From assembly GCF_038396675.1 (NCBI RefSeq), contig NC_088921.1, positions 46,223,501 to 46,287,500 on the forward strand: DNA of 64,000 nt, given 5' to 3'. This document shows, one piece after another, positions 1,795-49,800 of the stretch. The translations under genes were made by a program, and so were the position numbers. Source of the DNA: Hydra vulgaris. Taxonomy: Eukaryota; Cnidaria; Hydrozoa; Anthoathecata; Hydridae. How positions within the stretch are numbered: the first letter of the stretch is position 1; every line of letters begins with the position of its first letter. The notes below the pieces were generated by a model. The model saw only the letters and a program-made list of their open reading frames with translations. It had not been told where the DNA came from and searched no databases.

Positions 1795-4276
1795 ATGTTA
1801 ACTTTTAAAAATTATATTGTCGCCAATTATAGTATTGGATTATATCATAACATCAACGCATTAAAAAACGCAAAGAAAAACGCAGCAAAATCAAAAAATC
1901 AATGGATATTTCTTCAAAGATGTGTTAAACATTGCATCATCCCAAGATTTCTTCGTATAAAAAATCCACTGAACAGTAAATTTAGTAAATGCTTAATGAT
2001 AAAAGTTAAAAAAGATCTACTTCTACATACCCAAAAGCTAGCAAAAAAAAGATATTTCAACAACATAATTTCAATCAAAAAATTAGAAGAATTTATAAAA
2101 TCATGTGTAAATAATGAAGATTTTCAAAAAATTACAAACATTACAGATAAGTCCTACGAATATATGTTTTTGCAATCGAGAAATAAACTAAAAAACAAAT
2201 TTGATTTATTAATCAAGGAAAGTAGATATAAAGATAATGATAACCAAAGAAAGTACAAGTTTATAAAAGAGGTAACATTTAATTTATGTGCTGATAATAT
2301 CCCAACACATCACAAAAAATTACTAGATTTAGGACCCAACTTTGTTCCAATTCCGAGTAAAGTTCCATATATGGATATAATAAGTATAAATGAAACGGCA
2401 GCTTTAAAGTTAAAATATTCAAACAAAAATACTGATGCACATAAACTTAGACAAGATGTACTTCGAGTTTTGAAAATTCATAAACCGGTTTGTACAAATT
2501 TAGATAAGGATCAGTTTAAAGCTCTCAAAGAACTTAAGTCTAGCAACACAATTAGTATTTATCCGTTCGATAAAGGATCAGGCTTTGTTCGAATTAAAAA
2601 ACCGATGCTCTTAAAAAACTTGAAGAACAACTCGGAAAATCTAAAATCATAAACTATGATCCAACTCAAAAACTCCTTCGCAAAGTTCAGAATACTTTAC
2701 GAAATCTGAAAACAAAGTTTACAAAAAATGAATATAGATCGATTTATCCAAGTGACGCCACTCCTTCACGATTATATGGTGTCATCAAAGCACACAAACC
2801 AACTAATAACTACCCAATGCGAATTATAGTAAGCACAATAGGATCACCTACATATAAATTATCAAATTATTTAGTAAATCTCATCCAACCGACCTCCAAT
2901 CTTAACAAAACAAAACTTCGAAGTTCAAAACAGTTTGTTGAATGTGCTCAATCATAGTATATCGATCCTGGTGAATTTCAAGTTTCCTTCGATATTGTTA
3001 ATCTTTACCCTTCAATACCAGTTAAAGAATCAATCGATATTTTATTAGAACAACTCCGTAACAGTCCTGTCTTTAAATCAAAATTATCTTTTTCAGAAAT
3101 AAAAATACTTTTAGATTTGTGTTTGTCAAATTGTTATTTTTTACATGAAAGCAACATACACACATTGGAAGATGCTGGTCCTATAGGTTTATCATTAATG
3201 GTAGTAATGGCAGAGAGTTTTCTACAACATTATGAAGAAAAAGCGTTACTACAGGCGATATCTTACACCACCAATATGTGTAAAATCATTTAAAAGGTAT
3301 GTAGATGATATCCATTCCCGTTTTATAAATGAGGCAGAATCAGAACGTTTTCTCAACTTGTTAAATAATCAACACACAAATATCAAATGTACAATTGAAA
3401 AAGAAAGTGATTCACACGCAATAAATTTTCTCGATCTCTCAATAACAAATAACAAATCCGGAACATATCTTTTTAAAATCTATCGCAAAGATGCAACTAC
3501 TAATGTGCAAAATTAAGCCGCATTTTTGTCACGATCCAAAAATAATTTATGATGTATTTAAAGGTTTTATCTAAAGAGCTTTTGCATTATGCAGTAAAGA
3601 ACACATAAATCATGAATTAAAGTTTCTAACAGAAATGTTTACAGAAAATGGTTATAACAAAAAAATACTTCAAAACATTGTCAAAAAAATAAAAAAAAAA
3701 AAGCAAAATAATCAACAAAACAACAACAATAACATCAATAAACTAGAACCAAATTATATTTCTCTACCATGGGTACCAAAATTAAGTAATCAATTAAAAC
3801 AGATATTTAAAAGTGTAGGCTATACTCCAGTTTTTAAATCACCAAAAAACCTTCAACAATTAATAACTCAAAAAAACAAGCCTCGACTTCCCAACAACTC
3901 TTACCCAGGAGTATACAAACTGGAGTGTTCGTGTGGAAAGCTCTATGTAGGTGAAACAAAACTCAAGGTTTCAACTCGCATTTGCCAACATCAAAAACAT
4001 ACTTTTGAGGGAAAATGGAAAAATTCGGCCGTAGCGGGGCATTCCAGAAATTGCCATGGTGTCTTTGGCTGGAATAATAACAACACTGTTAAAGTAGAAG
4101 AAGACTATTTTAAGAGAAAAGTGAGAGAGTCCTTGGAAATACAGTTTCACCAGTGTTTTCCGGGTGAAGGCGGTTTGAATGAAGACGACGGTGATTACGT
4201 CACATCGTCGTTTTGGAAACCTTATTTTTCTTTTTTAATCAATCATCAATCAATCAATCAATCATATATATTCTGA
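1795..4276 (+). pseudogene. Penelope-like retroelement polyprotein: reverse transcriptase + GIY-YIG endonuclease (broken)
   Basis: Open blocks at 1795-2652, about 2650-3230 (other frames), 3232-3516 and 3635-4276 together read as one PLE protein. The first block is a basic N-terminal domain. The middle carries RT motifs: LYGVIKAHKP near 2775, FDIVNLYPSIPV near 2989, AGPIGLSLMVVMAE near 3175 and the catalytic YVDD at 3298-3309. The last block has a GIY-YIG-type nuclease: YKLECSCGKLYVGETKL near 3915-3965, followed by the Arg of RICQH. The protein would copy RNA at a nicked target and cut DNA with its own nuclease. Frameshifts near 2600 and 3510-3620, a stop in CAQS*YIDP (about 2956) and a shift near 3230 make it inactive. 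An ATG at 1795 follows the terminal repeat by 17 bp. Family call is strong; clade within PLEs is not resolved. Confidence 0.92.
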
Positions 4277-21106: not shown

Positions 21107-21610
21107 GCTGGCAAACAACGTTGAAATAACGTTGAAACCTAACGTTGAATTTACGTTGATTCAACGTTTAGAAGGAAAGTTTTTTTCAACGTTGATTTAT
21201 CAGCGTTAAATCAGCGCTAGGTTCAAACGTTATATCAACGTTGATTCGACGCACAGAAGTGTTAAAATAACGTTGAGTTTACGTTGAAACAACGTTTAGA
21301 ATGACAGTTATTTTAACGTTGATTTATCAACGTTAAACCGACTGTTAAAAAACGCTTTCCCAGCAAGCACACAACGTTACTTAAACGTTGGATTTTTGTT
21401 GTTTATTGGTCACGACGTCAATCCACCAAATAAATGTTAAAATAGCGTTAATTTAAACACCAAACCAACGTTATATTAACGTCGAAATAATCAACGTGGC
21501 TAGATAACGTAATGCTAACGTTTTATTGGCGTTTGATTTCATAAGCTTTAAATACGTCTTGTTTCTTGATATTTTCAACGTTACATCAACGTCAGGTCAA
21601 CGTAGAAAAA
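21107..21610. repeat. ACGTT-rich subterminal repeat arrays of CACTA-like element(s), left end
   Basis: AACGTTG/CAACGTT words occur about every 10-25 bp, in both orientations. Two probable element starts are present: CCAAGCTGGCAAACAACGTTG at about 21104 and CCCAGCAAGCACACAACGTT at 21359. The latter is matched in reverse by AACGTTTTTGTGCTTGCTGGG ending at 31102. Such arrays are typical transposase-binding subterminal repeats in CACTA-type elements (inference). The first ~250 bp may be a separate non-autonomous copy inserted side by side. Confidence 0.75.
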
Positions 21611-22128
21611 AAAATTTTTCGAAACCATTTGTGTTTTCTAATAACTACTTTATGAATGTAATTTTAATTTTGTACCACGAGGCGAGAATAAATTCAGAAT
21701 CTTCTTCAGACTTTACTACCTGTTTATTTTCGTTTATAATTTTTCGCTTATTAGCATGTATTTTCATAATAAGATAAGCAAAATTTTTATAATATAAAAG
21801 CACTTTTTTATTTATAATATCATAAATAAAGTTTAATAGATTGTGTATTATGTGTATATACAAATATCATAAGAAATATAATTGATGTGCTTTTGACTAT
21901 TAACTAAATATAACTAAATGTGTAGAACAGCATACTTATTAACAAATTAATTAATGCTACTTAAGTTATTTATTAATCAGTTAATTAAAAGTTGTTTAGC
22001 TTTGAGTAGTTTAGGTTAGTAATAGTTACTTATATGAAATTTAAAAACTTTGTTTTCATTAATGCTTAGTTTTAGTTAGGCATTTTACTTCTGAAAAATT
22101 GTTTATAGAAAGTAGTTTATTTAATAAA
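21611..22128. other. Putative promoter/leader region of the CACTA-like transposase
   Basis: AT-rich sequence between the ACGTT array and the first plausible ATG (22129). Open frames here are short and overlap on both strands, so none is called. No specific promoter motif was recognised. Confidence 0.35.
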
Positions 22129-24194
22129 ATGGTATCTCGGTTAAGTAAATGGAAAAGTATTAAACGATTTGTTAACGAGGTATTATTAGAAGAAAGTGAG
22201 AATGATGTTTATTCTGGTGATAAAAATGTTGCTGTTGACAGTTATTATGGTGGAAGTGTTTTAATGAGTTATGATCAAATAGTTAGAAATAGTGTTGCAT
22301 TAACCTCTTGTACTTATGATGATTTTGATATCTCATGTAATTCATCTTATGATACAACTGCATCTAGTACAAATAATGAGTTTAAAACATTGAACTCATC
22401 TGATAAGCAATATAATGAATTGGAAACAACATCATGCAAGATCTGGCATCTTGGGCATCTCGAAATAGATTGACACAGATAGCAATAAATGAAGTATTGG
22501 GTATATATTGAAATAGATTGACACAGATAGCAATAAATGAAGTATTGGGTATCCTAGTTAAACATGGTCATTCCAATGAACTACCAAATGATTCAAGAAC
22601 CTTACTAAAAACACCAAGGTCTGTAGAAAGTGTGAATGTATGTGGAGGGAGTTATGTGTACATTGGAATTGCTTTAGGAATCATAAGAACCTTGAATAAA
22701 AATAATGGTTGCACAGAAAAAATAGAATTGACTGTTAACATTGATGGTTTGCCTTTGTTTAAGTCTTTTTCTACACAGTTATGGCCTATTCTTTGTAAGT
22801 TTAGCACTTTAAACCCATTTATTGTTGCACTACATTGTGGTGAGAAAAAGCCAAATAATGTTGATGACTTCATGAAAGATTTCTTAACAGAGTATGATTA
22901 TCTAAAAACCAATAACTTAGTTTACCATGATTGATCCTACTTAGTTTCAATAAAGTATTTTACATGTGATACTCCAGCAAGACAATTTCTCAAGTGTATT
23001 AAAAGCAACACTGGTTACTTTAGTTGTGAGCGGTGCGCAACACAAGGTGAATGGAAAGGAAGAATGGTTTTTCATGAACTTGATTGTTGTAAGAGAACTG
23101 ACGATAAGTTCAGTTTACTAAATATCCTGAACACCAGCTTCGACTGAGTCCTCTAATAAGTTATGGCATTAGTTGTGTGAATCGATTTGTTTTAGATTAT
23201 ATGCATTTAATATGTCTAGGTGTGGTAAAACGACTTATAAGTTTTTTAAAATTTGGTCTGCCTGTATGTCGCCTTTCCCAACTTCAAATTAGTAGAGTTT
23301 CAGAAAGCCTTGTTCAATTAAATGGATGTATGCCAAGTGAGTTTGGAAGGCAGCCTAGATCATTAGAAGACTTCAAAAGATGGAAAGCAACAGAGCTTCG
23401 TCAATTTTTACTTTATACTGGACCGGCTGTTTTAAAAAAAACCTTATCAAAAGATTTCTATGCCCATTTTGTCACACTTAGTGTAGCTATAACAATTATG
23501 TCATATACGAGTGTATCAAAAAGGTCAGAAGTAATGTTAGATTATGCAAATGAGCTTTTACTGTGGTTTGTGTCTGAGGCAAAAGTTTTGTATGGACAAA
23601 CATTTACATCTTATAATGTGCACACTTTAATCCACCTACACGAGGACATAGTAAATCATAAAACAAATTTTCATGAGTTATCTACTTTCTCATTCGAGAA
23701 TTATATGTACATATCAAAAAAATTTATTTAAGAAATCCAAAAATCCACTTGGACAAGTTGTGAAGCGTTTGTCTGAGTTAGAAACATCAGGGTCATTGTT
23801 TTCTTCAAAAGCTGTTTTCACCACTGTTTCAATAAAAGAGAAAGATCGTTGGTTTTTACTTGAGTCAAACAATTTTGCTTGTGTCAAAGATATATTATAT
23901 AACAATTTCTTTTTGTGTGATAAACTTAAATCTTATCAAATAAAAAGTTTGTATACAAATCCATGTGATTCAAAAAAGATTAATATTGGTTATGTTCAAA
24001 GTAATGTTTGTATGAAGCAGAAAGTTTTGCATAGATCTGCATTGAAGTGCAAAGTGGCAAGTTTACCCAATTTACCAAATGATAATAGTTTTGTACTTGT
24101 GCCTCTATTGGACGAAGTTCATTGGTCATTGACTAAAAGTTTTCTTCTTTTTACATGTGTAGTATTTAATAATTATATATCATTATATATGTGA
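22129..24194 (+). pseudogene. CACTA/EnSpm (tnp2-like) transposase, broken by several frame changes
   Basis: ATG at 22129 opens an acidic/Ser-rich N-terminal domain. From about 22440 the conserved part reads LASWASRNRLTQIAINEVLG, LPNDSRTLLKTPR, INIDGLPLFKSFSTQLWPIL-like (VNIDGLPLFKSF at about 22738), PFIVALHCGEKKPNNVDDF, DTPARQFLKCIKSNTGYFSCERC (Cys knuckle, about 22965-23040), then NRFVLDYMHLICLGVVKRL at about 23180 (DxMH of tnp2-like proteins) and RWKATELRQFLLYTGP. The C-terminal part runs to 24194. A 50-bp tandem duplication (22457-22506 / 22507-22553) shifts the frame. Further breaks lie near 22430, 22934, 23145 and 23730. The family occurs widely in animal genomes as DNA-transposon transposases; placement in CACTA/EnSpm is from the tnp2-like layout and is less certain than transposase itself. 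Confidence 0.8.
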
Positions 24195-24296
24195 TTATAA
24201 TAATGAATAAAGTTAACCAAAAAATGTTTTGTTATACATTTAACACTGAATGTAATTTTTTTATAACAGTTTAAGTGTTGTGCGAGTATGTATATA

Positions 24297-24366
24297 TAAA
24301 TTATATATATGTATATATAATATATATATATATATATATATTATTTTTTTTTTTCTTTTTTTTTTT
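24297..24366. repeat. (TA)n tract and T-rich LINE tail
   Basis: TATA-rich sequence at 24290-24342 is followed by an oligo-T stretch at 24343-24367. On the minus strand the T stretch is the poly(A) tail of the LINE whose 3' end lies at about 24368. Confidence 0.8.
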
Positions 24367-24367
24367 A

Positions 24368-26703
24368 TACATCTTCGCTTCCAACAAGGCTGCAAGCAGC
24401 CACTAATTAAAGTTGGAAGTTACTGAAAGAGAAAAGATGAAGATTGTAGAGCAAGATAACGATTGACAGACGACTTAAAGAATTGCAAATTATATGAATC
24501 AGGAAAGCAAGATGAAGGAGGCGAATTCCAAAGAGCTGATGTTCGAGGAAAAAAACTAGACGAATAAGCGTTTTTGGAGCACTTAGGAACAGTCACAGAA
24601 AAAGGATGACACTTAATTGAATGACGAGTAACACGAGAATGAGTTATAGTAGATGGCACAAGAGACGCTAGCTCTTTAGAGCAGTGCCCATTATAGTATT
24701 TATAAAAAAGAGAAAGAGAAGTAACATTACGACGATGTGATAATGGTTGGAGGTTGCCTGCAAGAGCAGGTCCAACTATGTTTACAATGCGTTTTTGCAC
24801 TTTGTCTAAAAGAGAAAGGGCATCATTAGAAGAACCGCCCCAGATATGACAACAGTATTCCATACAAGGCCGGATTTGAGATTTATAGAGATAAAGAATA
24901 GAATCCGAAATAAGAAAGTGACGAGCTCGATAAAGAGATGCAACCTTAGCAGATGCTAATTTTGCAACTGATTTGATATATGGTTTTCAAGAAAGATTGG
25001 AAGTAAGAGTTATTCCTAGAAGATGAAGAGTAGGTGACTCATCGAGTACATCACCGTTCATAAATATAGGAAGATCTAAACTATTGCGATAAGGATTGGC
25101 TGAAAAAAAATTGAGTTTTATCTGAATTAAAGTTCACCAGCCACTATGAGCCTCATGCTGTTGCAGAAGTGAGATCCTTTTCAAGCTCAAATGCCCCCTC
25201 CAAGCAATCAGAGCATGTCAAACTTTATCAAAAGCTTTTGAAATGTCGAGAGCAATGGCCTTAACCTCTCCACCTTTATCTAATGCACAATAAATCTGTC
25301 AGTTATTACTGTTAACAAATCAGCTGTAGAACGAGAAGATCGAAATCCATAATGATGGTCAGAAAGTAAGTTATTAGATTCAAGATGAGAAATTAAGTGT
25401 TTGTTAATTAAAGATTCAAAAACCTTGCTTATGGTAGGAAGAAGACTTATGGGACGGTAGTTAGACGAATCAGATCGCTCTCCAGAATTTTTGAAGATAG
25501 GAATAACAGATGCCGCTTTCCAGCAAGCTGGAAAACAAGACTCTGATAAGCACTTGTTGAATAGTTTTGAGAGTATAGACGACAGCTCCGGAGAACACTT
25601 CTGCAAGACAATAACAGGTATGTTGTCCGGGCCACAAGCTGTAGAAGAGTCTAGGCAGGAAATCACTTTAGATACAGATGCTAGAGTGATATGAATGTCA
25701 AGCAATGGATCAACCTGTTTGTTGGCAATATCAGGTAGAACGCAATTAGTGGAATCAAGAGATGATATTGATGAAAAGTTTTTAGCAAACAATTCGGCTT
25801 TGTCTTTAGGTGAGGTGACAAAGTCTAAACCATGCAAGAGAGGTGGAATTATAGATTTGCCCTTATTATTGATATTGACACGAGAGCCTAATTTTTGGGA
25901 TGAGATGCGAGATTTCATGACCTGAGAATAGCGGGTTTTGGCGTTAGACAAAACCTTTTTACAATTGCATCTAGCAGTAATAAACAGACGTCTGTTTTCT
26001 GGAGAACTGTTTTGCTGATAAATATCGAAGTAACGATTTCGATTGGCAATCGCAGCAGCACAGTGTGAGAAAAACCATGGAGGAGAGTGAGGCTTGACCT
26101 GGAATCGTCGAGAGAGAATAAAAGATTCCATGCCAGCCTGAATCCACGAAGTTATGTAAGAAGCACATTTGTCGACAGGAAGACGAAAGGTTTCTACCCA
26201 AGGGCCGTCACGAAGAAAATCACGGAAAGAACCCTAATCAGCTTTACTGTAGTTGTAAGAGGTTTAATAATAGGGGGATTCAGGTGATGAAGAAGAATGA
26301 GATATAAGTTTTAGAGAGATCAAACTGTGATCAGAAGCACCTAAGGGTAAATGTGGAGAAACTGAGCACTGACTAGGATCAGAAACAAGACATAAGTCGA
26401 GTAGAGAAGGTAAATGATTCGGGTTGTCTGGAAAGCGAGTTGGAAAGTTGACTATTTGAGTTAGGGATTGAGAAAGGCAAAAGTTGTGGGCTTTAATGCC
26501 TGCCGAATCACTGACAATAGAGCCAAGCCATTCAGAGTGGTGAGCATTAAAGTCACCAACAACAACTATATTAGCTGATGGATAAAGAGAGAGGGCTTGG
26601 TCAATATGAAACTAGGTTTGAATCCACAGACTATTTTTTTATGTGCTTTCGTTTAGCACCACTTCACTTTATTGCCTTTCTCTTTGTTCTATATTGCTCT
26701 CCT
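24368..26703 (-). pseudogene. CR1/jockey-type LINE (endonuclease + reverse transcriptase), 5'-truncated, RT core deleted
   Basis: Read downward from about 26620: VVVGDFNAHHSEW and LLDLCLV..GASDHSLI are APE-endonuclease motifs. Then 26131-25280 encodes ACGPDNIPVIVLQKCSPE, FPACWKAASVIPIFKNSGERSDSSNYRPISLLPTISKVFE and the YGFRSSRSTADLL motif. After GEVKAIALDISKAFDKV (RT motif A) the sequence jumps to SANPYRNSLDLPIF, so the YADD motif is deleted. The tail (24863-24420) reads MEYCCHIWGGSS, PLSHRRNVTSLSLFYKYYNG and SFFPRTSALWNSPP. LINE proteins nick DNA and copy their RNA into it. Frame breaks and the deletion leave it inactive. It is inserted, opposite in orientation, between the transposase and DUF4806 genes of the host element. 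Confidence 0.9.
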
Positions 26704-26775
26704 TCATCTCAAGACTGCACACTTTTTGACGTTGTTTCTAGAAACAACGTCAAAAAGTGTGCAGTCTTGAGATGA
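26629..26775 (+). repeat. Inverted 5' piece of the LINE ending in a perfect 72-bp palindrome
   Basis: On the plus strand 26636-26735 reads MCFRLAPLHFIAFLF...YCSPSSQDCTLFDVV, which is endonuclease-domain sequence of the same LINE but opposite to the rest of the element. It ends in an exact palindrome (26704-26775): TCATCTCAAGACTGCACACT... to its mirror ...AGTGTGCAGTCTTGAGATGA, two arms of 35 bp and a 2-bp centre. 5' inversion of this kind is typical of twin priming during LINE insertion. Confidence 0.8.
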
Positions 26776-28090
26776 ATGAGAAAATTTAAAACTTTGTTTT
26801 AAATTTTATTATTTGATATATATTGATATTGTATTAACTATATTAAATATATATTGATATAACTTTTTTAGATTTTTTTAGATTTAGAAATTGGAGGGTC
26901 AAACTGCAACTTTAGTGTCAAAGTATCCTAAATAAAATGAATCCTATTTTAGGTGATCAAGATGTTTGTGAAAATTATTTTCAAACAGACCAGGAGCAAG
27001 AAAATGAATGCATAAATTTTGAAAGTATGTACTGTTATTTTTACTTATAAACATTTTTATGAAATTTTTTTTAATGCTTAAATATTTTTATGCTATTTTT
27101 TTATAATTTCTTTAAAATGAATTGGTTCATTTTAAGTATCGGTATTACGGTGAAGCAATTTTTATTGAAAATAAAAAGATTGAAAATCAATATTCCTGAG
27201 ACTCAAACTGATGTTTGTTAATTATATCACAAAAGTAAAAAAGTATTTTTACATTTAGATGAATTCTTGAGGCTTGTTTTAGAACCCAAAAGTTTATACG
27301 GCTTCTATTATTATTATCTTAGACTCCAAAAAAGTGGAATAAATTGCTACTTTTATAAATAATCTTTTTATTAATATAAATTTTTTGGTAAAAAAAATAG
27401 TTGCAAAATATACCTAAAAAACTTTACTGCAGTACTAAAAAACTTTATTGCATATTTTGTTGAAATGAAAAGAATAAGCTTTTTTAATTAAAAGATAATA
27501 ATTCAGAGCTCAGTCACATCAAATTTCAAAAAAAAATTTAAATTACTCCACCCTAATCTTTATATTTATAGTAATATATATTTATGCATAGAACCTTTCA
27601 ATTTCAATAAAAGTATACCAATACCGAAATTCACAAGTAATTTATCACCAAAACAAAATTATCAGCATTCTGGCACATCTTCGTTGTTACATTCTTCTCC
27701 TATAAACAACTTATTTGATCAGGTGTGTGCAAGGGTTGAATCTTGCTCAAGATCATCTTCTCCGTCAGCAGTGTCTAAATATTCACAGTATTCATTAAGA
27801 GGTAATGCTAAAAATCAAATTAATGATGCCAAGAAATTGCAATCATATACCTCAAACTATCAATCACCTATGAAAATATTAGGGGTTCTTTACAATTTTC
27901 TTCAACACATAGCCAATTGCCACCTGTTGTTTATCATTCACCTGAGGGAGAGTCAACTCATCAAAATTGTCATTTTGCAAAACCAACAAGAAATGATGGA
28001 GCTTCAAATGTCTTAAGTAAATATCCGTTTTCTGAAAAACGTGATATGACTTTTGTAGTACTTACTATTTTTATGTATATATGTGTTATA

Positions 28091-28092
<2 letters not shown>

Positions 28093-28150
<58 letters not shown>
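28093..28150. repeat. (GAT)n microsatellite in DUF4806 intron 2
   Basis: About 19 uninterrupted GAT triplets. The resulting poly-Asp open frame is not a gene. Confidence 0.97.
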
Positions 28151-28159
28151 ATATATACA

Positions 28160-28371
28160 CCCTCGGAATAAAGAGGTCAGCAATAATTTTGCAAAAAATT
28201 GAGGTCAGCAATAATTTGCCAACATAATCTTTTAGAGGGCAGCAGCAGGTCGGCAAAAAAAAATTGATACAAAGGTCTTACCATAAAACATAGAAACGAG
28301 GTCGGCAACTTTTTGCTGACCTCAAACACTTTTAGGTCGGCATTGCAGAATGCCGACCCTAATTCTGAGGG
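28160..28371. mobile_element. MITE with CCCTCGGAATT-type ends, copy 1
   Basis: Ends CCCTCGGAATAAAGAGGTCAGCAA (from 28160) and TGCCGACCCTAATTCTGAGGG (to 28371) are inverted. The 212-bp interior is rich in GGTCGGCAA/TTGCCGACC subterminal words. TATATA flanks both sides, compatible with a TA-type target. Confidence 0.88.
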
Positions 28372-28404
28372 TTGATATATATATATACGTCTGTGTATAT
28401 ATAG

Positions 28405-28623
28405 CCCTCGGAATTAGGATCAGCATTCAGCAATCCTGACCTTCAAGTATTTGAGGTCGGCAAAAATTGCCGAAAACGATGTCAGCAAAAATTGCCGACT
28501 TTGTTTTTTCGTCTTATGGTAAGATCTTTGAATCAATTTTCTTTTTTTGATGACCTGATGCCAACCTAGAAAAGATTGAGGTCGGCAAATTATTGCCGAC
28601 CTCACTTTCCTTAATTCCGAGGG
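28405..28623. mobile_element. MITE with CCCTCGGAATT-type ends, copy 2 (opposite orientation)
   Basis: Ends CCCTCGGAATTAGGATCAGCA (28405) and CCTTAATTCCGAGGG (28623). The internal word ATGGTAAGATCTTTGAATCAA is the reverse of TTGATACAAAGGTCTTACCAT in copy 1, so the two 0.2-kb copies lie in opposite directions only 33 bp apart, both within DUF4806 intron 2. A (TC)n run (28627-28649) and a (TA)n run (28669-28702) follow. Confidence 0.88.
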
Positions 28624-28669
28624 TTATCTCTCTCTCTCTCTCTCTCTCTTAAAAAAATTAAAACCATAT

Positions 28670-28703
<34 letters not shown>

Positions 28704-28923
28704 GATTTTAATTTTTTTAAATCAAATTAGGATTTCAATACGAGGTGATTCAGCTGCTTAGTGAGATAAAATCAGTTGCAAATACCCATCATTTTCAATG
28801 TACATGTAAAGCTGCTCAAGATGACAATCTATTACTTCTTTGAAATACTGTAGAAGAATTTGATGACTTGGAGAACAAAATATCTTCAAATGAAGATGTG
28901 TTTAATTTACTTGTACGTATTTT

Positions 28924-29823
28924 GGTGTGCCATGCTAGACAAGAATAAAATGAGGATATATAACTAGGAAAGAATAATTTCAGAATAGAATGTTTTATGA
29001 TAGAAATAAAGAAACCTTACTAGAAAAGAATTTTTACAAAAGAATATTTTTTGGCAGAAATTTTGAAAAGAAACTTTAAATACTTTCTAAGAAAGAATAT
29101 TTTTTAATAAACGTAAACAACTTGCTGGGAAAGAATTTTATTTAATAAATGCGAAAAACTTGCTAGGAAAGAATTTTATTTAATAAATCTAAAAAACTTG
29201 CTACGACAGAACTTTATTTCATTAATCCAAAAAAACTTGCTAGGACAGAATTACCATTTATAATAAAAGTGAATCACTGATGAATGATTTAGAAATTTCA
29301 GATAATCTTTATTATTTCACAAAGACTTTGTTAGAATTAGATTATACTTATAATCTATAATGACGATTAAATGTTTCTTCAAATCAAAAAAATTACACCA
29401 TTCAAAAATATATTGATATTAGCTTATTATAAAGCAATAATCGTATAGTCTTTATAATTATTTAACATTTATTCAATTAAAAATCATAACTGTAATTACC
29501 AAATTGCGCGCAAATTCTTTCTTAAAATTTCTTTACTAGCACGTTTATAAAATTTCTTTTCTAAAATTTCTTTGCTAGTACGTTTTTCCAATTTTCTTTG
29601 CTAGAAAGAAAATGACTTTTGTGCGATTTCTATCCTAAAAAAGTCTTTGCTAGCAAGTTTTTCATTTTTCTTTGCCAGAAAGGATATATGTATTTCTTTC
29701 TTCTTTTCTATCCTTCAATTATTCTATCCTAAAAAGTAATCATGTTTTTTTCTATCATAGCAAGAATTTTCATGTTTCTTTCCTAGAAAGGCTTTCCTGA
29801 ATTCTTGTGTAGAACCGGCCACC
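28924..29823. mobile_element. 900-bp fold-back (hAT-type) MITE with 8-bp target duplication
   Basis: The flanks CGTATTTT at 28916-28923 and 29824-29831 are identical 8-mers. The ends are inverted: GGTGTGCCATGCTAGACAAGAAT versus the mirror of ATTCTTGTGTAGAACCGGCCACC. Inside, the left half repeats CTTGCTAGGAAAGAATTTTA-like units (29060-29255, period about 44 bp). The right half (29515-29800) repeats the reverse, TTTCTTTGCTAGCAAG-like, so the two halves can fold together. No ORF. An 8-bp duplication points to hAT mobilisation. It sits 11 bp after the 3' end of DUF4806 exon 3, leaving the donor GTACGT intact. Confidence 0.88.
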
Positions 29824-30919
29824 CGTATTTTATTTATAATTATTTTATAAACAACCAAGCAAATTTTATAAAATGTGTACTTAAAACTTGCAAAATCTTA
29901 GGTCAATCAAATTAGTCGAGTCGGTGGAGCAAATTACAAAACAAGCATCAAAAACATCATGCAACGGTAAGTTCATTTTGTTACTATAAGGGAGATGTAA
30001 ATTCCCAATTGTTTTTCCTATTATTGCTTTTCTTAAAATACTATATAGTGGTAATGTTTTACATAAATGTTTTCATAACTAATGATATTATATTTATATT
30101 ACCACCATTTTGTAGTTAGAAACGGTTTTGAAATTCAGACATAAAATTTGCATATGTAATAATAATGACAAGTATAGACAATATATACATATTTTAATGT
30201 ATATATTAAATATAAACAATATATTCATTAAAATTTAAACTGTTGGATATTTTTATTTCTATTTAAAGATTAATTAAAAGTTTAATTGCAGATAACAAAG
30301 CTCTAAATTTGTGCATATGAGATTTTTATTTCTTTTCTGCAATTTTTAGGGTAATGTCAAATAGCCTTCAAGCTAAATTTAGTATGGCAGGTAAGAGAGG
30401 ACAAAAAAAAGCTTTCGAAAAGACCAAATTTTATCATGCTGTATCTGGTAATCGTTTAAATTTTATATGACCAACAGCCCTTAAATCTCTTAGTCTTGTT
30501 GATATGAAACTAGCTGTAAGCAATCTACAGATCGATTTCCAATTAAAATATGTCAGATAAAAATTTTAAATAATTAACCCTTGTTCTATTTTTAGATTCG
30601 GTTTTGGCGACTTATGCAGAGAGTACGAGATCCACAATTCGAGATTTTTTAAAAGATTACCTAAAATATGCTCCTGATAGGCTAAACGGAGGTGGGCGCA
30701 AGAGCTCGCCGCGCACTCCGGAGTAACGAAAGTTATTTGTAAGCGTTGATACAACCAATATTTATAAAAAGTTTAATTGCAGATAACGAACAAATCTCTA
30801 AATTTTTGCTGTATTTGTTTTGAAATAAGAATTATATACATATTATTATTTGTTGTATTATTTCAAGAGATGTTTTGTATATGCCTAAAATTTATTTTGG
30901 TTGTTTTAAATCGGTAAGA

Positions 30920-31102
30920 ACGACCAACCTAGGTTGAAATAACGTTTATATAACGTAATATCAACGTGTTTCTTACGTCTGTCCGCAACGTTGACAAAAA
31001 CAACGTCATAATTTGTTTCCATTTCAACCAACTTTCAACGTCAGTTCAACGAGTACTGCGACGTTATAACAACGTTGTATCAACGTTTTTGTGCTTGCTG
31101 GG
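30920..31102. repeat. ACGTT-rich right end of the CACTA-like element
   Basis: ACGTT/AACGT words recur every 10-20 bp and the block ends CAACGTTTTTGTGCTTGCTGGG at 31102, the mirror of the left end at 21359 (CCCAGCAAGCACACAACGTT). It lies about 195 bp after the DUF4806 stop codon. Confidence 0.78.
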
Positions 31103-32775: not shown

Positions 32776-35241
32776 CTATAAATTAAGAACATTAGAAAAT
32801 ATAACATTATTTGTGTAACACTTTACACCTACCATACCGTGAATGAGATGTTTATCAATTTTGAAAAACAAACTATTAAATGCTCTAGTTCTTGAACATG
32901 CAACATATAGTTGACCATGAGAGAAACACGGTTTTTTGAGATATACCCTAACTCTATCAAATGTTTGAGCTTGACTTTTATTAATTGTCATTAAATAAGC
33001 CAATCTGACAGAAAACTGACAACGTTTCAGAACAAAAGGTAAATTAGAATCTGATGGAGCACCCTGAATTCGAGGAACAAAAACCCGTTTACCACCGGAA
33101 ACACCTGTCAAAACCTCTGCATCAATATAACTATTTTGAAGTGCACTAACTTTCATTCGAGTACCATTGCATAGCCCAGCTTTGAGATCTAAATTCCTAA
33201 GTAGCATAATTACACAACCAATTTTCAATTTTAAACAATGAGGTGGCATACCTAAAGGAGTTAAGCTGTTCAAAAACTCAACAGGAAAGTTATTTCTTTC
33301 ATTAAGGTCATCAGTATCAATTTGATTAGCATTTAAAAAAATTTTGATCTCACCCGGCAGACATTCAAGCACTTCTTCATTGATTGATAATGAATCAACA
33401 TTAGTTGGTGTTAAAATCACGTGTTTAGAATAATCATTTTGATCAGCATCTCCAAAAATCTTTTCAACAATCGATTCATTTTCTCTAATAATGCACTGAT
33501 TTGGAAATGTAAATTTCTGCACCCATCGCCACTGTAACATTTTATACACGATTCTACAATTTCAGCTGGTTGTCCTATTTTTACAACAGGCAGTATTTGC
33601 CTGAAGTCACCACCAAAAAGAATGACTTTTCCTCCAAACGGAAAGCTGTTGTTGCAAACATCTTTTAACAACCTATCAATTGCGTTAAGGCATGTTTAGG
33701 TATCATGGATGTTTCATCAAGCAAAAACAAACTATCTTGTTTTGAAAAATGACCATGTATAGAGTTAGGGGTTACATTACATGTGCTGCTATCCAATATT
33801 GGAACAGGAAGTTAGAATAAACCATGCAATGTAGATCCATTTGTAAGAAGAGTTGCTGCTATGCCAGTCCATGCAGCTGAAGCTGATTTAAAACCCCTAC
33901 TTATGGTTTCAGCAACCAAATAATTATACGTAAACGTTTTTCCACTACCAGCTGGTCTATCCATAAAAAACAATCTGGAATGTTGATTTTCTACACTTGG
34001 TTGCTCGTTCAATGCAGCAAGGACAGCATTACACTTAATTGATTGACATTAAGAAGCAGTCTCATTCTATTAGCTTCGTCAATTGATTGCTGAACATTAT
34101 CATTTAAACTTTCTAGATTAAAATCTATGAATTCATCAACAACAGGCATATTATAACCAGATAGCGTTTTACCACTTTGATTAATAATCTTTTCGATTTG
34201 ACGAAGAATAGCTTGTTCAGCTAATATAAATGGAACTTGGCAATGAATGAAATCCTCCATCATAAAAGCTTTGTATGTATTACAAAGATGCAAAGGGTCG
34301 TCAGGTTCACAAAAGGTTAAAATAACTGAAAACAGCTGTCTAATTTGCTTAGGCATTCGCATTAAAACTGCCTCAGAAAGAGTATTCTGCCATTCAGTGT
34401 CATCTTGCAACAAACCTTTGAAAACATATGCTTCACCAAAGGTTTCAAGAACTATTCCATTAACAGAACGCAAATCCGCCCAAGATGTTGCTCCTTTTGC
34501 CTGCAAAAGTAACGATCTAAGAAAAAATAATTCTCCTGTTGGACTAACTTTATACATTCTTACTATCACCTTTTTTCCACCTTTGTCTAACCTTCCATTT
34601 ACAATGTTTATCATCAAGTGATATGGAATGTCTACATATGAATAGCGATGCGCTCCTTCATTTTCAGAATTTAATTTAAGCCATGCCGTAAGGTGTGTTG
34701 TATATATTCTCAACTATATATATATGTGGATCATATATATATATAGTTGAGAATATATTGGTGGAATATCTTGATCTGGGCTAAAATTACCTATACGATG
34801 ATAAATCTGGCCACATATTTTAAAACATGGAGGCCCATGATTTATTGGTTGAATTACAGTTGCTTTAAAAGAAGCGAAAGAAAGATTATAATTTATTATA
34901 TGATTTCGAATATGTTATAAAAAATTAACATTAGCATTATGATCTACATAATTCCCTGTAAATAAACCCTGTAAAACTTGTGTAAATGGTGAAAGTGGAA
35001 TTAAAGCTACCTTACCATTATCGCAACATAGAAAATGTGTTTCATCTGGAAATTTCTTAGCACCACAGTGCTGACAAATTTTATTCATTTCTCCTAAATA
35101 ATTATATTCTGGAATAGCATTACTTCTTGCTATAGAATACATTTGTCCTTGTCAAACAGATCTTCTTTCATTTTGGCGATGATTAACTTCACCTCGATTT
35201 ACCCTATTTCTTTTATTTTGGCGACGATTATCATTAAACAT
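32776..35241 (-). pseudogene. Helitron Rep/helicase, Rep region deleted, frames broken
   Basis: Reading down from 35241 (MFNDNRRQNKRN...), the N-terminal zinc-finger part has CQHCGAKKFPDETHFLCC and GKVALIPLSP, with one stop at about 35154. After IYHRIGNFSPDQDIPP the text jumps to YIYTTHLTAWLKLNSENEG-like sequence (34713), so several hundred residues including the HUH Rep nuclease are missing. The PIF1-type helicase follows: MDRPAGSGKTFTYNYLV (Walker A, about 33950), LLDETSMIPKHAL (Walker B, about 33705), KVILFGGDFRQILPVV, and finally INKSQAQTFDRVRVYL and QLYVACSRTR near the C-terminus at 32776. Helitrons transpose by rolling-circle replication. Frameshifts occur near 33550, 33700 and 34010. 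Confidence 0.9.
34703..34757. repeat. 55-bp palindrome at the Helitron deletion junction
   Basis: TATATTCTCAACTATATATA on the left mirrors TATATATAGTTGAGAATATA on the right around TGTGGATCA. It sits where the Rep-coding region is missing. Confidence 0.85.
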
Positions 35242-37799: not shown

Positions 37800-37866
37800 T
37801 TTTTGTCAACGTTGATTTAACGTTAAAACAACGTTTAAACGGTAACATTGTTTTAACGTTGTGACA
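37800..37866. repeat. ACGTT-rich element end, interrupted by Tc1 insertion
   Basis: CAACGTTGATTTAACGTTAAAACAACGTT... continues to AACGTTGTGACATA, where the Tc1-type element starts. It matches the style of the arrays at 21.1-21.6 kb and 30.9-31.1 kb and belongs to the opposite-strand transposase copy. Confidence 0.75.
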
Positions 37867-37868
37867 TA

Positions 37869-39418
37869 CAGTACTGTTCATAAGTTTAGAGCCACCTGTT
37901 TTTTTCATTATTTTGCGGCTTAAGTATGGTGAGGTTAACATTATAAGCATAACAATGCATATTGTAATTTGACAAGGTACGAATCTATTGATATTCATGA
38001 ATAATTGTGTATTAAACCAAATATAAATATTGATATTCATGAGTTCTTTAATATTATAGTCAATTTTTGAACATTTTAACATATTTTGGTAACTTAATGA
38101 TGTATTGGTATCAATGTTTTGGTTAATTCAGTTGTTATTTATGCTACTTTTTGGAATGTGTACACTAGTTAGATAATGTATTTAATGATATTTTCGTTTT
38201 TATTTTAGAGTTTGAGTGAAAATATTTTCTGAAATGGGCAAAGCTAAAAGCCTTAATTCAACTGTTCGGGCCCAGGTGGTGGTTTTGAAGGAAGTTAGTG
38301 GTTTAAGCCTAAATGATATAGCCAAAAAAATAAAAAAAAGTCGCCATGCTGTACAAAATGTGTATAAGAAACATTTGGAATCAAATACATTCACGGACAA
38401 ACCCAGATGTAGCCGTCCTAGAATGTCAACTTTACGTCAAGATAGAACCTTAAAACGCCTGGCCCTAACAAATCGTCGCCTTTCTTCCAAAATTTTGTCT
38501 CGACAGTGGCATGATGTTGGTGGACCTTTAATATCTCCAAAATCTGTTCGTCGTCGTTTGAATAAACAAGGTTTGAATGGTGGTGTTGCTATTAAAAAGC
38601 CTTTTATCTCCAAAATTAATCAGCAGAAGCGTCTCAAATTTGCACACGAATTTTTGCATTTTAGTGTTACTAATTGGCAAACGGTGTTGTGGTCTGATGA
38701 GTCCAAATTTAATTTAGCTGGTAATGATTCTCTACGTATTTTCGTTTGGCGTCGTCAAAATGAATCATATAAACCGGAATGTTCGCAGGGAACTGTAAAG
38801 CATGGTGGTGGTAGCATCATGGTGTGAGGTTGTATTTCATCTTTTGGGCCGAGCCAGTTGTATCAGGTGGAAGGAATCATGAATGGTGCCATGTATAGAG
38901 ATATTTTGCGAAAGCATTTGCTACCTTCAACAACAGCATTGTTTCCTGCAACTTTTCCATGGATCTTTCAGCAAGACAATGATCCTAAGCACACGTCCAA
39001 AGTGGCTAAAGATTTTCTAGCTGCTAATGGTGTTCAAGTCTTGCACTGGCCACCCCAGTCACCGGATTTGAACCCCATAGAAAATTTGTGGGATGAAATT
39101 GATCGCCGCTGTGCAGGCAAACGTGCTAGTAATAAACTTGAACTTTGGGACTTTATTTCTACCGCTTGGACTAGTATTACTGCTGTTGATTGCAAGAAGC
39201 TTGTTGACACTATACCAGCCCGGTTGGCTGAAGTAATTAAAAATAAAGGTGGATCTACTCATTATTAATATTTTAATACTCATTTTGGTACTAAAATGTT
39301 ATAACAATATATTTTGCATGTTTCAGTAATATATTATTTTGCTGCACTGGGGTTATGGCTTTATAATCTGCAAAAAACTAAAAAAAATGGGGTGGCTCTA
39401 AACTTATGACCAGTACTG
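37869..39418 (+). mobile_element. Tc1/mariner element, complete, TA target duplication
   Basis: Left end TA|CAGTACTGTTCATAAGTTTA (from 37869) mirrors the right end ...ACTTATGACCAGTACTG|TA (to 39418). Terminal repeats match over about 30 bp with few differences (TTTAGAGCCACC shared). TA flanks both ends, as expected for this superfamily. The 1,550-bp length is normal for an autonomous element. Confidence 0.95.
38234..39268 (+). pseudogene. Tc1-like DD34E transposase, full length with a single premature TGA
   Basis: ATG at 38234 (MGKAKSLNSTVRAQVVVLKE) is preferred over the in-frame upstream ATG at 38216 because conservation starts there. Two N-terminal helix-turn-helix regions (LSLNDIAKKIKKSRHAVQNV; then SPKSVRRRLNKQGL) are followed by the catalytic core: WSDESKFNL (first D, about 38697), QQDNDPKHTS (second D, about 38972), SPDLNPIENLWDE (E, about 39072). 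The tail EVIKNKGGSTHY is typical. At 38825-38827 the motif GSIMVWG reads GSIMV-TGA-G: one G-to-A change in the Trp codon stops an otherwise open 344-codon frame. The element is therefore very young or recently inactivated. It cuts and pastes between TA sites. Confidence 0.95.
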
Positions 39419-46829: not shown

Positions 46830-49800
46830 GTTTGTAATGTACTTTTTTTTACTTTAATGTTTTTTAAAATTTAATTCGAAACTTAATTTTTGTCAATCTT
46901 TTAAATTTCTTCTGAAACATCTTGCATATTATCGGTTTCACGTAATAACCTTAATATACCTCCAAAACAAACACTTAAGTATGGAATTTAACTATGTCAG
47001 TCCATCCATTCTCTACTTTCGAATACTCTATCTAGATATTAGAAAAATAATGATTCTTTAGTTGCTTATTTATCTGCTTGTTGCTTTTATGATATTTTAC
47101 TAAAAATTAGGTTAAACAAATTTTTTGCCTTTTACTATCACTTAAATCTCTCCTCTTAATTATGTTCTTTTAAGGTGTATATTATTTTTAGTTTTCTTCT
47201 AGTAAAGGTAAGTCTAACCTCGTGAAGTAAATAATAGAGTTTCTCTAAATTAATTGAAAATAAAAACATTTAGGCATTGACCTCATGTTAAATAATTTTT
47301 GGAAAATATCTTATCTACTATTTTGTGTGAGCATGTACTTCAGGCCCCTTTAAAAGGCTGGAAGAAGCAACTCTAATGCATAATAAATGTGATTGAAAAC
47401 CTGACTTAGACTTAGCTTTAGGGTTACTTGTTTTGAATAAGGCTTTCTTGACTGGTAGCAAAATTTAACCTGTCATTTTAAAAAGAGACATCCATTAAAA
47501 CTCTTCAAAAACAACAAAAATGTGTTTTTATAGAGAATGTCTATGGTGCTTAAAAAAGAATATCTAGCAGTAGATAAATAAAAAATTTTTTCTTATTAGT
47601 TTTATTGAGTTTTAGTTATTATGAAAGGAAACATGTAGATATTTTTAATTTAAAAGTTTTAGTTAATAGACTTGTGACCCTTTTGATATAGGGTATCAAT
47701 TGTTCTGTTGCAGTGTAGGTTGTTAGACTTATTTTTGCTTATATACATTATAAAGTCAATTAAAATAATTGATTGATTGATTATACTTATGCTTGCATAT
47801 ACATTTACTTTAATAGATAATCCTAAAGTTAAGTGGCCTAGAATAATTTTATTTTTTTGCTTATTTACTTATACTTGCATATACATATACTTTTTTAAAT
47901 AATTTTTTTTTTCAATTGTTGTGCACTTGTCAGTGAAGGCTTAACAAATATAAGGAATATTTGTTAAAATAATAAAAGAAAAAAGATAGCTGCCCCGTGC
48001 CAAACCCTAAATCATATACTCACTTGGAGCAGCAGACTATAAGATAGTCGATATATGTATTGAAGCCAATAAATATTCCTAATGTTTAAAAAGTCTCCAC
48101 TGACAAGAGTGCTACAAGCAAAAAAATTATTTTAGGCTTCTTAACTGTAGCTTTACCCTTTTATATTAGTTTTGTGTTTTAGAAATAATCCTGCTAAGTT
48201 TTAAAGTATTAGCAATTCATTTGTGTATGCATGTAATTGTGTTTTAGTGCGCTCTTCACAACTACTTTTGAATATATATTAAATTTGTGTAAATTTTTTT
48301 ATTTAGAACAATGCGTATGCTAATGATGGTCCCATGGAAGACTCGCGTGAGTCTGAAGCAATGAGAAAATTGTTTGTTGGTGGACTAAATAGAGAAACCA
48401 CAGATGAGACTTTTTTTGAATACTTTGGGCAGTTTGGAAACACTGTTGACCAAGTTGTGATAAAAGATCCTGATACCAAAATGTCAAGAGGCTTTGGTTT
48501 TATAACATATGATCAATCATCTGCTGTAGAGAGTTGTTTTGCCAGTCGTCCACATGTGTTGGATGGAAAAACTTTAGATGTTAAACGAGCTATACCAAAA
48601 GAAATGCAATCCCCAGCATCTCGTTTAAGAGTAAAAAAACTATTTGTAGGAGGCGTTGCCCCTGATCTTACCCCAGAAGAATTTCAAGACTATATTGAGA
48701 GTCGTCATCCTACATCAATCGGCACTATAGATAAAATTGATTTTTTAAAAGACAAAGATACAAATAAGAATAAAGGTTTTGGTTTTTTGGAGTGTTCTAG
48801 TGAAGATTTTGCTGATCGTTTAGTAATAAGTGAAAATTCTTTTCAATTAAATGGGAAAAATATGTCTTTAAAAAAAGCTGAGCCTAAAGAAGGTTTGTTT
48901 AATTTTTCTTTTTTGCAATTATTATATGATTTTTTATAAATTAAAAAATGTGTGTTTCCTTATTTATACAATCATTAGTATAAGTTGTTTCTTTATGTAA
49001 AAATGTGTTGGTTAATTTTATAAAGAAATTATAAAAGAGCAAAGTTTAGAAGTTGTTAGTCCTGTATTTAATTTATTTTTTTTCTTTTTTTTTTCTTTAA
49101 GAACTCATTCTTTTTTTAGTTATTTTCCACAGGACATCTGTCCTTTTGAACTTTTATCTAACTCTGCCACACTCTTGTTAACCTATTATGCATCTCTTAG
49201 GCATTCACTGCTTGGTGTAACTTTACTAAAATGCATTGCATTTTAAAAAGTTTTTTTTTGTAATTGTCTCTTGTCAGTCTAGTTAAGATTTTTTTGTGCC
49301 TTTTTAAAAAGTTTCAAAACATTTAAAAGGCTGTGGCTGAGTTGTTGCAACTAAATATTATATCAAGAGGCGAATTAGATAATTAAATAAAGGTTTATTT
49401 ACCTCATTTCTATTTTCTAAAATTTTAGTATATAACAATAAGTATTTTTATCCTGTATTTGTATTATCTGGATAAACTTCTGTTTTAACCATTATAGTAT
49501 TTAAAACATATGTGTGAGAGTCCTATGAAAGAACTATTTTTGTTGCAGTAAATTTGTTGTTTTTCTGCAAAAAAAATTTTGCAATCTGGTAAATTTAAGT
49601 TAATTTGCTACTTGTATGTGCATGGTCAAGAATAGAGTGTGATCGTACTCGCTTCTGAATGAGTCTTAAATATATATTGTTATTGTGATTTATATATATA
49701 TATTGTTATTGTGATATTTTTTTGTTATTGTTGTGTTTTTTTGTTATTGTTGTGTTTTTTGTTTTATGTTTTTTTTTTCGTCTATATTATTATTATCTTT

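Follow-up and report, generated by a model that had tools for sequence, protein, structure and literature searches.

Does a transposon of Hydra vulgaris carry a DUF4806 gene as a part of itself, and what would the encoded protein do there? The question is raised by a stretch of 64,000 nucleotides (assembly GCF_038396675.1, contig NC_088921.1, positions 46,223,501 to 46,287,500), which is called the window here and whose first letter is position 1 of all coordinates below. At 21359-31102 (+) it holds a transposase gene and, downstream on the same strand, a gene for DUF4806, a domain of unknown function, between matching ends. An earlier sequence-only reading had joined the two genes into one DNA transposon. 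The present analysis showed that the transposase and the DUF4806 gene form one mobile unit and that the pairing is conserved across several subfamilies. The window copy is dead because both of its genes are broken. We consider it probable that the locus is a dead two-gene transposon of the TRC type, the DUF4806 protein of which would bind and pair the element ends in the manner of plant TNPA.

Two genes in one mobile unit

The whole element, inserts included, is bordered by TT on either side, a 2-bp target duplication. Its left terminal inverted repeat (TIR), CCCAGCAAGCACAC, lies at 21359-21372 (+) and the right one, CCCAGCAAGCACAA when read outside-in, at 31089-31102 (-). A motif search of the window found CCCAGCAAGCACA exact and inverted at 21359-21371 (+) and 31090-31102 (-). 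These two element ends were the mismatch-free matches among the six places listed. When three mismatches were allowed, the number of end motifs was at or below chance, so that it was uninformative as a count. With AACGTT clusters present at both ends as well, the mirrored terminal motif and ACGTT-rich ends of the sequence-only reading were confirmed.

Self-comparison was carried out in the window's own assembly (911.5 Mb, 15 contigs). A 140-residue piece of the transposase scored at no fewer than 150 genome places, and 26 loci were analysed, namely the window and 25 fetched ones (20 + 5) picked for closeness or long open frames. The alignments of L011, L012 and L014 with the window cover the transposase, the DUF4806 gene and the right end. 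In L012 and L014 the transposase and DUF4806 keep their order and strand and are enclosed by the CCCAGCAAGCACA ends seen in the window. For L013 the alignment takes in the left end, the start of the transposase (to window position 22900), the larger part of the DUF4806 gene, and the right end; the L013 transposase is partly replaced by 1.2 kb of other sequence, and both ends are present. The lengths of L012, L013 and L014 are 6087, 5979 and 6657 bp, respectively, in agreement with the unit of about 6 kb that had been expected after removal of the inserts. L020, L022 and L023, which belong to another subfamily, are 96.7-98.4% identical over 6.3 kb comprising both genes. They are located on three chromosomes, and their flanking duplications differ (CC, TT and AA, respectively). 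This subfamily looks young.

Twelve of the 26 transposase loci, the window among them, were delimited. An exact 2-bp target duplication was present in ten of them (TT, AA, TT, TT, CC, TT, AA, TA, AG and AT). Mismatched pairings of left and right flanks agreed at 2 bp in 20 of 132 cases, and none of 100000 permutations reached ten. An exact 3-bp flank match appeared in one of the twelve, L028 (TAA/TAA), the flanks of which do not agree at 2 bp. All of the twelve elements terminate with CCCAG or CCCAA and not with CACTA-type termini; for L020, L022, L023 and L032, CCC was demanded by the end search itself. L014 is inserted within another repeat, and uninterrupted relatives of that repeat were found with the flanks of L014 joined, which makes them paralogous empty sites. 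The three that were fetched all read through the junction, with a single TT in L038 and L040 and with AT in L039. Their identity left of the L014 junction is 74/87, 70/89 and 61/77. To the right it is lower, with 17-18 identical bases among the first 30 aligned and 51-52 among about 90.

The linkage of the two genes was then counted over the genome. Among the matches listed, exon 6 of the DUF4806 gene occurred at 149 places and the right end at 40, both lists being weak at their lower ends. Inward of each of the 12 close right ends listed, exon 6 is matched on the same strand at a start-to-start distance of 91-403 bp; one of these matches, at C12:62616936, is weak (E 0.35). Over all listed right ends the proportion is 25 of 40. 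An exon-6 match was located 1-12 kb downstream on the same strand for 17 of the 150 transposase places listed. The controls gave a mean of 0.10 and a maximum of 2 in 1000 random shifts, one pair upstream and one on the opposite strand. The number is no higher than 17 because the window's exon 6 detects mainly its own subfamily. The corresponding exon of the L020 subfamily matched seven genome places, four of which are downstream of a listed transposase. A search of the 26 loci with a spliced profile gave a score of at least 70, with DUF4806 downstream of the transposase, in 19 loci, while reversed or shuffled sequence reached at most 29. Eight of the 19 had been used to build the profile and the remaining 11 had not. 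The transposases of the 19 loci are 42-100% identical to that of the window over the 140-residue piece. Among the delimited elements, DUF4806 is well above noise in 11 of 12, L032 being weak.

DUF4806 was also found apart from a transposase. At about 60 genome places listed, the last DUF4806 exon lies in an 81-residue open frame without a listed transposase, and none of them is among the 17 pairs. As judged from L036, the one that was read, these places probably represent a derivative in high copy number with kinship to the L024 subfamily. L036 (C14:2992600-3000100) has a like score and an 82-residue frame, and from roughly exon 5 up to the right end it aligns with L024. Its 7.5 kb revealed neither a transposase nor a left end. 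A solo DUF4806 gene was considered for this locus and rejected, as it matches the 3' part of the two-gene element L024; we take it as a deletion derivative or a 3' fragment on the basis of this alignment. In L037, DUF4806 and a right end are preceded by other sequence, and its 7.4 kb contains no transposase. Two ends enclosing a transposase without DUF4806 were not seen among the 12 delimited elements or in a genome-wide search of right ends only. The pairing of the two genes, which the sequence-only reading had put forward as a supposition, is therefore supported by copies with both genes between the same ends, by the short target duplications and by the empty sites of L014, and no DUF4806 gene standing alone at a conserved host locus was encountered.

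The transposase

The transposase of the window lies in pieces at about 22063-24191; it changes frame three times, has in-frame stops and includes a small duplication near 22.5 kb. The N-terminal part (22063-22470, +) has an ATG near 22129. The following part (22512-23144, +) includes VNIDG with the first D, CDTPAR with the second D, and CERC, and is interrupted by an in-frame stop at 22932. NVHTLIH (H-x3-H) and FENY (E) are found in a different frame at 23108-23728 (+), and the C-terminal part, again in a different frame, at 23655-24191 (+). The same motifs are visible in the intact sister transposases. In all of the seven intact sister open reading frames (ORFs), D191, D266, C285, C288, H485, H489 and E510 are invariant and their spacing is fixed. 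L020 has an intact ORF of 648 residues and is the only one of L020, L022 and L023 in which the frame is whole. Open frames of 1877-2151 residues among the genome transposase matches were set aside because one such locus, L035, contains 5400 N.

The best structural matches of the predicted transposase model were the RAG1, Transib and ProtoRAG transposases, and an RNase H-like fold was recovered. The overall similarity is low, with template modelling (TM) scores of 0.22-0.36 by query length and 0.28-0.41 by target length. As a DDE transposase, the enzyme is RAG1/Transib-like and bears the zinc-pair signature that marks the CMC-Transib (CMCT) group. It had been described as tnp2-like. A transposase is indeed present at 22.1-24.2 kb, in pieces, but the term tnp2-like receives no direct Pfam support: Transposase_21 (PF02992) gave no match in five window pieces (E up to 1), in four of them (E up to 10) or in the seven intact sister ORFs. 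Matches below the cut-off in the intact sister ORFs were obtained with DUF4218 (4 of 7, best 6.4e-4) and with DUF1258 of the Mirage group (3 of 7, best 0.0091). Three scans of viral contigs found no relatives of two transposase pieces or of the spliced DUF4806.

The DUF4806 gene

The second gene has six exons on the forward strand. Exon 1 (26937-27024) is an open frame with edges placed by eye, and exon 2 (27592-28016) encodes a low-complexity region rich in S, P, N and Q, inside which the frame changes. DUF4806 starts in exon 3 (28731-28912), which has an in-frame TGA at 28841-28843, and continues through exons 4 (29902-29966) and 5 (30350-30447); exon 6 (30596-30726) contains the stop codon. 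The GT-AG phases are consistent for exons 3-6, and the outer edges of exons 1 and 2 are consistent by eye. The exon model and the common direction of the two genes had been predicted correctly, but the gene is broken by the frame change in exon 2 and the TGA in exon 3. A hidden Markov model search with exons 3-6, spliced and read past the in-frame stop, matched PF16064 (DUF4806) with 36.2 bits against the Pfam cut-off of 25, as the sequence-only reading had anticipated. Spliced domains from eight members all match PF16064 at E up to 0.1, and the seven sister domains are 30-97% identical to that of the window. A family search of the genome with PF16064 gave a single match because the exons are short.

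DUF4806 is likely to bind DNA, judging from its sequence relationships. It is called a BEN subtype in PMC11075544, which cites Pan et al. 2023, and BEN-type DNA binding is described for LIN-14 (PMC10080584).

Palindrome arrays and the proposed role of DUF4806

Arrays of short palindromes are found inside both ends. The left subterminal AACGTT array spans 21372-21608, and the first 300 bp of the element contain 12 ACGT (against a mean of 4.0 and a maximum of 8 in 200 shuffles). The right one spans 30933-31088, and 10 ACGT are present in the last 300 bp (against a mean of 3.9 and a maximum of 10 in 200 shuffles). AACGTT occurs 32 times in the 64 kb against 19.0 in shuffles, and none of 100 shuffles reached 32. 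It is clustered at the two element ends, immediately to the left of the element and at 37.8 kb. In eight elements, the interiors contain 0.7-2.0 ACGT per kb. The left ends of L034 (1 ACGT) and L033 (3 ACGT) are not above their own shuffles. The arrays differ by subfamily: AACGTT is the palindrome of the window subfamily and L024, and GACGTC is that of L020, L022, L028 and L033. Pairs of ACGT exactly 11 bp apart number 54 against about 4.3 per distance at random in the eight elements, which are not all independent. This is the commonest spacing in the window element, L020, L024 and L028. CG-centred palindromes with an 11-bp spacing recur on the same face of the helix and would suit recognition by a dimer.

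Another dense AACGTT array (21113-21345) immediately flanks the left end on the outside, which gives the impression that the element inserted next to a relative. Likewise, the right 500-bp flank of L012 contains 14 ACGT, the window average being 0.91 per 500 bp. An insertion bias toward the element's own kind of array is possible; it is based on two of the eight elements counted.

For the function of the two-gene element, we propose the following mechanism. The RAG1/Transib-like transposase would cut at the CCCA-type inverted repeats. The second gene would give a spliced protein in which a low-complexity linker precedes a DNA-binding domain of BEN type (DUF4806) at the C-terminus. This protein may bind the ACGT-core palindromes inside both ends, most likely as a dimer, and with sites one helical turn apart it would coat the ends and pair them. 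The paired ends could then be cut by the transposase, as TNPA serves TNPD in plant En/Spm. We infer both the binding of the DUF4806 protein to these arrays and the pairing of the ends by that binding.

A different emphasis, which we regard as unlikely, is that DUF4806 is a regulator that binds the CpG-rich ends and represses or de-silences the transposase promoter, as TnpA does on methylated Spm. The ends are in fact CpG-rich within an AT-rich genome (3.9-6.7 CG per 100 bp against 0.9-1.5 inside, in eight elements). TNPA acts on the methylation of the promoter and is a repressor as well (PMC1636069), and BEN proteins are described as regulators of transcription and chromatin (PMC10080584). However, both ends have arrays, and the one that follows the second gene lies where a promoter is not expected. 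Moreover, regulation and end pairing are compatible, so that the two differ in emphasis only.

Less likely still, DUF4806 would be cargo that was captured once by an ancestral element and kept for some other reason, and the arrays would be recognised by the transposase or a host factor, for example a bZIP protein with a preference for ACGT cores. GACGTC and ACGT cores do resemble common bZIP sites. Other DNA transposons bear accessory genes such as TET/JBP (PMC12730594). On the other hand, the gene pair and like exon junctions are kept across subfamilies in which DUF4806 is 30-43% identical to that of the window, which is too much for idle cargo, and a single host factor would not explain the alternation of AACGTT and GACGTC between subfamilies. 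A chance neighbourhood, in which a transposase remnant adjoins an unrelated DUF4806 host gene and the ends match by accident, could be argued from the window alone before sister copies were available, but is refuted by sister copies that occur at independent places and agree in gene order, ends and duplications, and its probability is practically nil.

Several results weigh against the proposal of a two-gene TRC transposon with end pairing by DUF4806. As to the element, only 12 of the 26 loci could be delimited, and the 2-bp duplication is absent in L028, which has TAA on both sides, and in L034. DUF4806 is at noise level in the fetched stretches of L016, L017, L019 and L030 (in L016 and L017 an exon-6 match lies just beyond the fetched stretch), and it is weak in L031, L032 and L035 (scores 41-53). 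As to the arrays, the 10 ACGT of the right end are equalled by the best of 200 shuffles, L032 has no dominant palindrome, the AACGTT array of L034 is weak, and 11 bp is the commonest spacing in only four of seven subfamilies, L032, L033 and L034 being excluded. As to the transposase, the predicted model has a mean pLDDT (predicted local distance difference test) of 64.5, and E409 and D342 are likewise invariant; the choice of E510 as the catalytic E therefore depends on its place after H-x3-H. As to the domain, exons 4-6 alone match DUF4806 in three of four members (E up to 0.1), none of which reaches the cut-off. The BEN link is weak, since the BEN domain of BEND6 is the best of 177635 solved sequences at an E of 0.28, not significant alone. 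Nrf1_DNA-bind, another family, is weakly matched in three of eight members (best 0.0024, under the cut-off) and also in three of four members with exons 4-6 alone. NRF1 combines a dimerisation domain with a DNA-binding domain (PMC10810270). BEN is preferred over NRF1 as the label for DUF4806 because of the published claim and the top solved-structure match; neither is decisive.

Comparison with known elements

The element is of the TRC type, an animal relative of CACTA/EnSpm, rather than a canonical CACTA element, because of its CCC ends and 2-bp target duplications. The earlier term CACTA-like holds in the sense of kinship but not in the strict sense, as the termini are not of the CACTA type and a 3-bp flank match was present in L028 only among the twelve delimited elements. 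TRC elements, which comprise SmTRC1 of Schistosoma and relatives in Tribolium and Aedes, share TIRs that begin with CCC, for example CCCAGTCAAC in Aedes, as well as adjacent 2-bp direct repeats, and SmTRC1 has further spliced products (SmTRC-PrA) besides the transposase ORF (PMC1636069). In contrast to the Hydra element, the accessible text of that source does not assign the second protein of SmTRC1 to DUF4806 or BEN and describes no palindromic CpG arrays, and it reports Transposase_21, which HMMER did not reach in the Hydra element. Spongebob_HMa / EnSpm-4N1_HM is a Hydra element of 5,836 bp with the TIR CCCAGCCAACATTGAC and a 2-bp duplication, also filed with TRC (PMC4298943). Its TIR sequence is different, its transposase is described as hard to define, and no second gene is named in the accessible text.

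Maize En/Spm and soybean Tgmt (TNPA/TNPD) likewise combine a transposase with an element-encoded binder of subterminal repeats, a role which in Hydra is a predicted one. They differ in their CACTA ends, the 3-bp duplication of Tgmt and the production of TNPA by alternative splicing. We know of no kinship between TNPA and DUF4806. Plant En/Spm requires both TNPD, the transposase, and TNPA, which binds the subterminal repeats, and TNPA-like proteins and their repeats diverge together between subfamilies (PMC2613891, PMC8195511). The Hydra element has a like anatomy, with conserved ends and transposase, a second gene encoding a probable DNA-binding domain and arrays that differ by subfamily, but we regard its components as unrelated to those of En/Spm. 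RAG1, Transib and ProtoRAG have other ends and another duplication length, 2 bp being that of the Hydra element, and their overall similarity is low. The target duplication of Transib is 5 bp. Unlike BEN domain proteins and DUF4806 host genes, the Hydra gene is inside a transposon, beside its presumed binding sites. The element type is already known, while the partnership with DUF4806 appears to be new: in the literature searched, a second gene identified as DUF4806, its conservation across subfamilies and matching palindrome arrays at the ends were not found in print.

Inserts and neighbouring sequence

Two inserts enlarge the window copy. A long interspersed nuclear element (LINE) at approximately 24341-26792 (-) is absent from L011, L012 and L014, the only three copies aligning across its position, which hold 0.2-0.35 kb there. 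It contains minus-strand reverse transcriptase-like ORFs, and related sequence is also present in L036 and L037. An insert of 0.9 kb at approximately 28924-29823, absent from L011-L014 and L018, has repeats of 38-39 bp and sits in the intron after exon 3.

A further transposase of this superfamily, in degraded form, lies at 36.6-37.4 kb (-); its identity is 44.6% over 112 columns. It has its own AACGTT cluster upstream (37807-37862) and adjoins Tc1/mariner-like sequence (ORFs at 38216-39268, labelled by eye). Other ORFs identified by eye are GIY-YIG/Penelope-like (3635-4276, +), PIF1-helicase-like (32776-33549, -) and an RRM (RNA recognition motif) protein (48334-48939, +). An Rfam scan of the window gave nothing at gathering scores.

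Implications

In PMC7642931, DUF4806 is listed as a Hydra-enriched domain: two Hydra species have counts of 69 and 54, whereas those of five other cnidarians are 0-6. The accessible text makes no tie to transposons. The proposed role would give this domain of unknown function a concrete job together with built-in candidate sites, as the AACGTT and GACGTC subfamilies each have their own DUF4806. It would also account for the abundance of DUF4806 in Hydra. Animals would then resemble plants in possessing CACTA-type elements that encode an end-binding protein of their own, and transposons would be one source of BEN-type regulators. As a broader and tentative idea, which we hold to be possible rather than probable, DUF4806/BEN may ancestrally be the end-binding subunit of animal TRC transposons, each subfamily reading its own NACGTN array, and the DUF4806 genes of hosts such as Hydra, fish and insects may be live or domesticated copies of it. 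If this is true, the combination with a RAG1-like transposase would be an animal counterpart of the TNPA/TNPD system, offering ready protein-site pairs for the study of BEN specificity.

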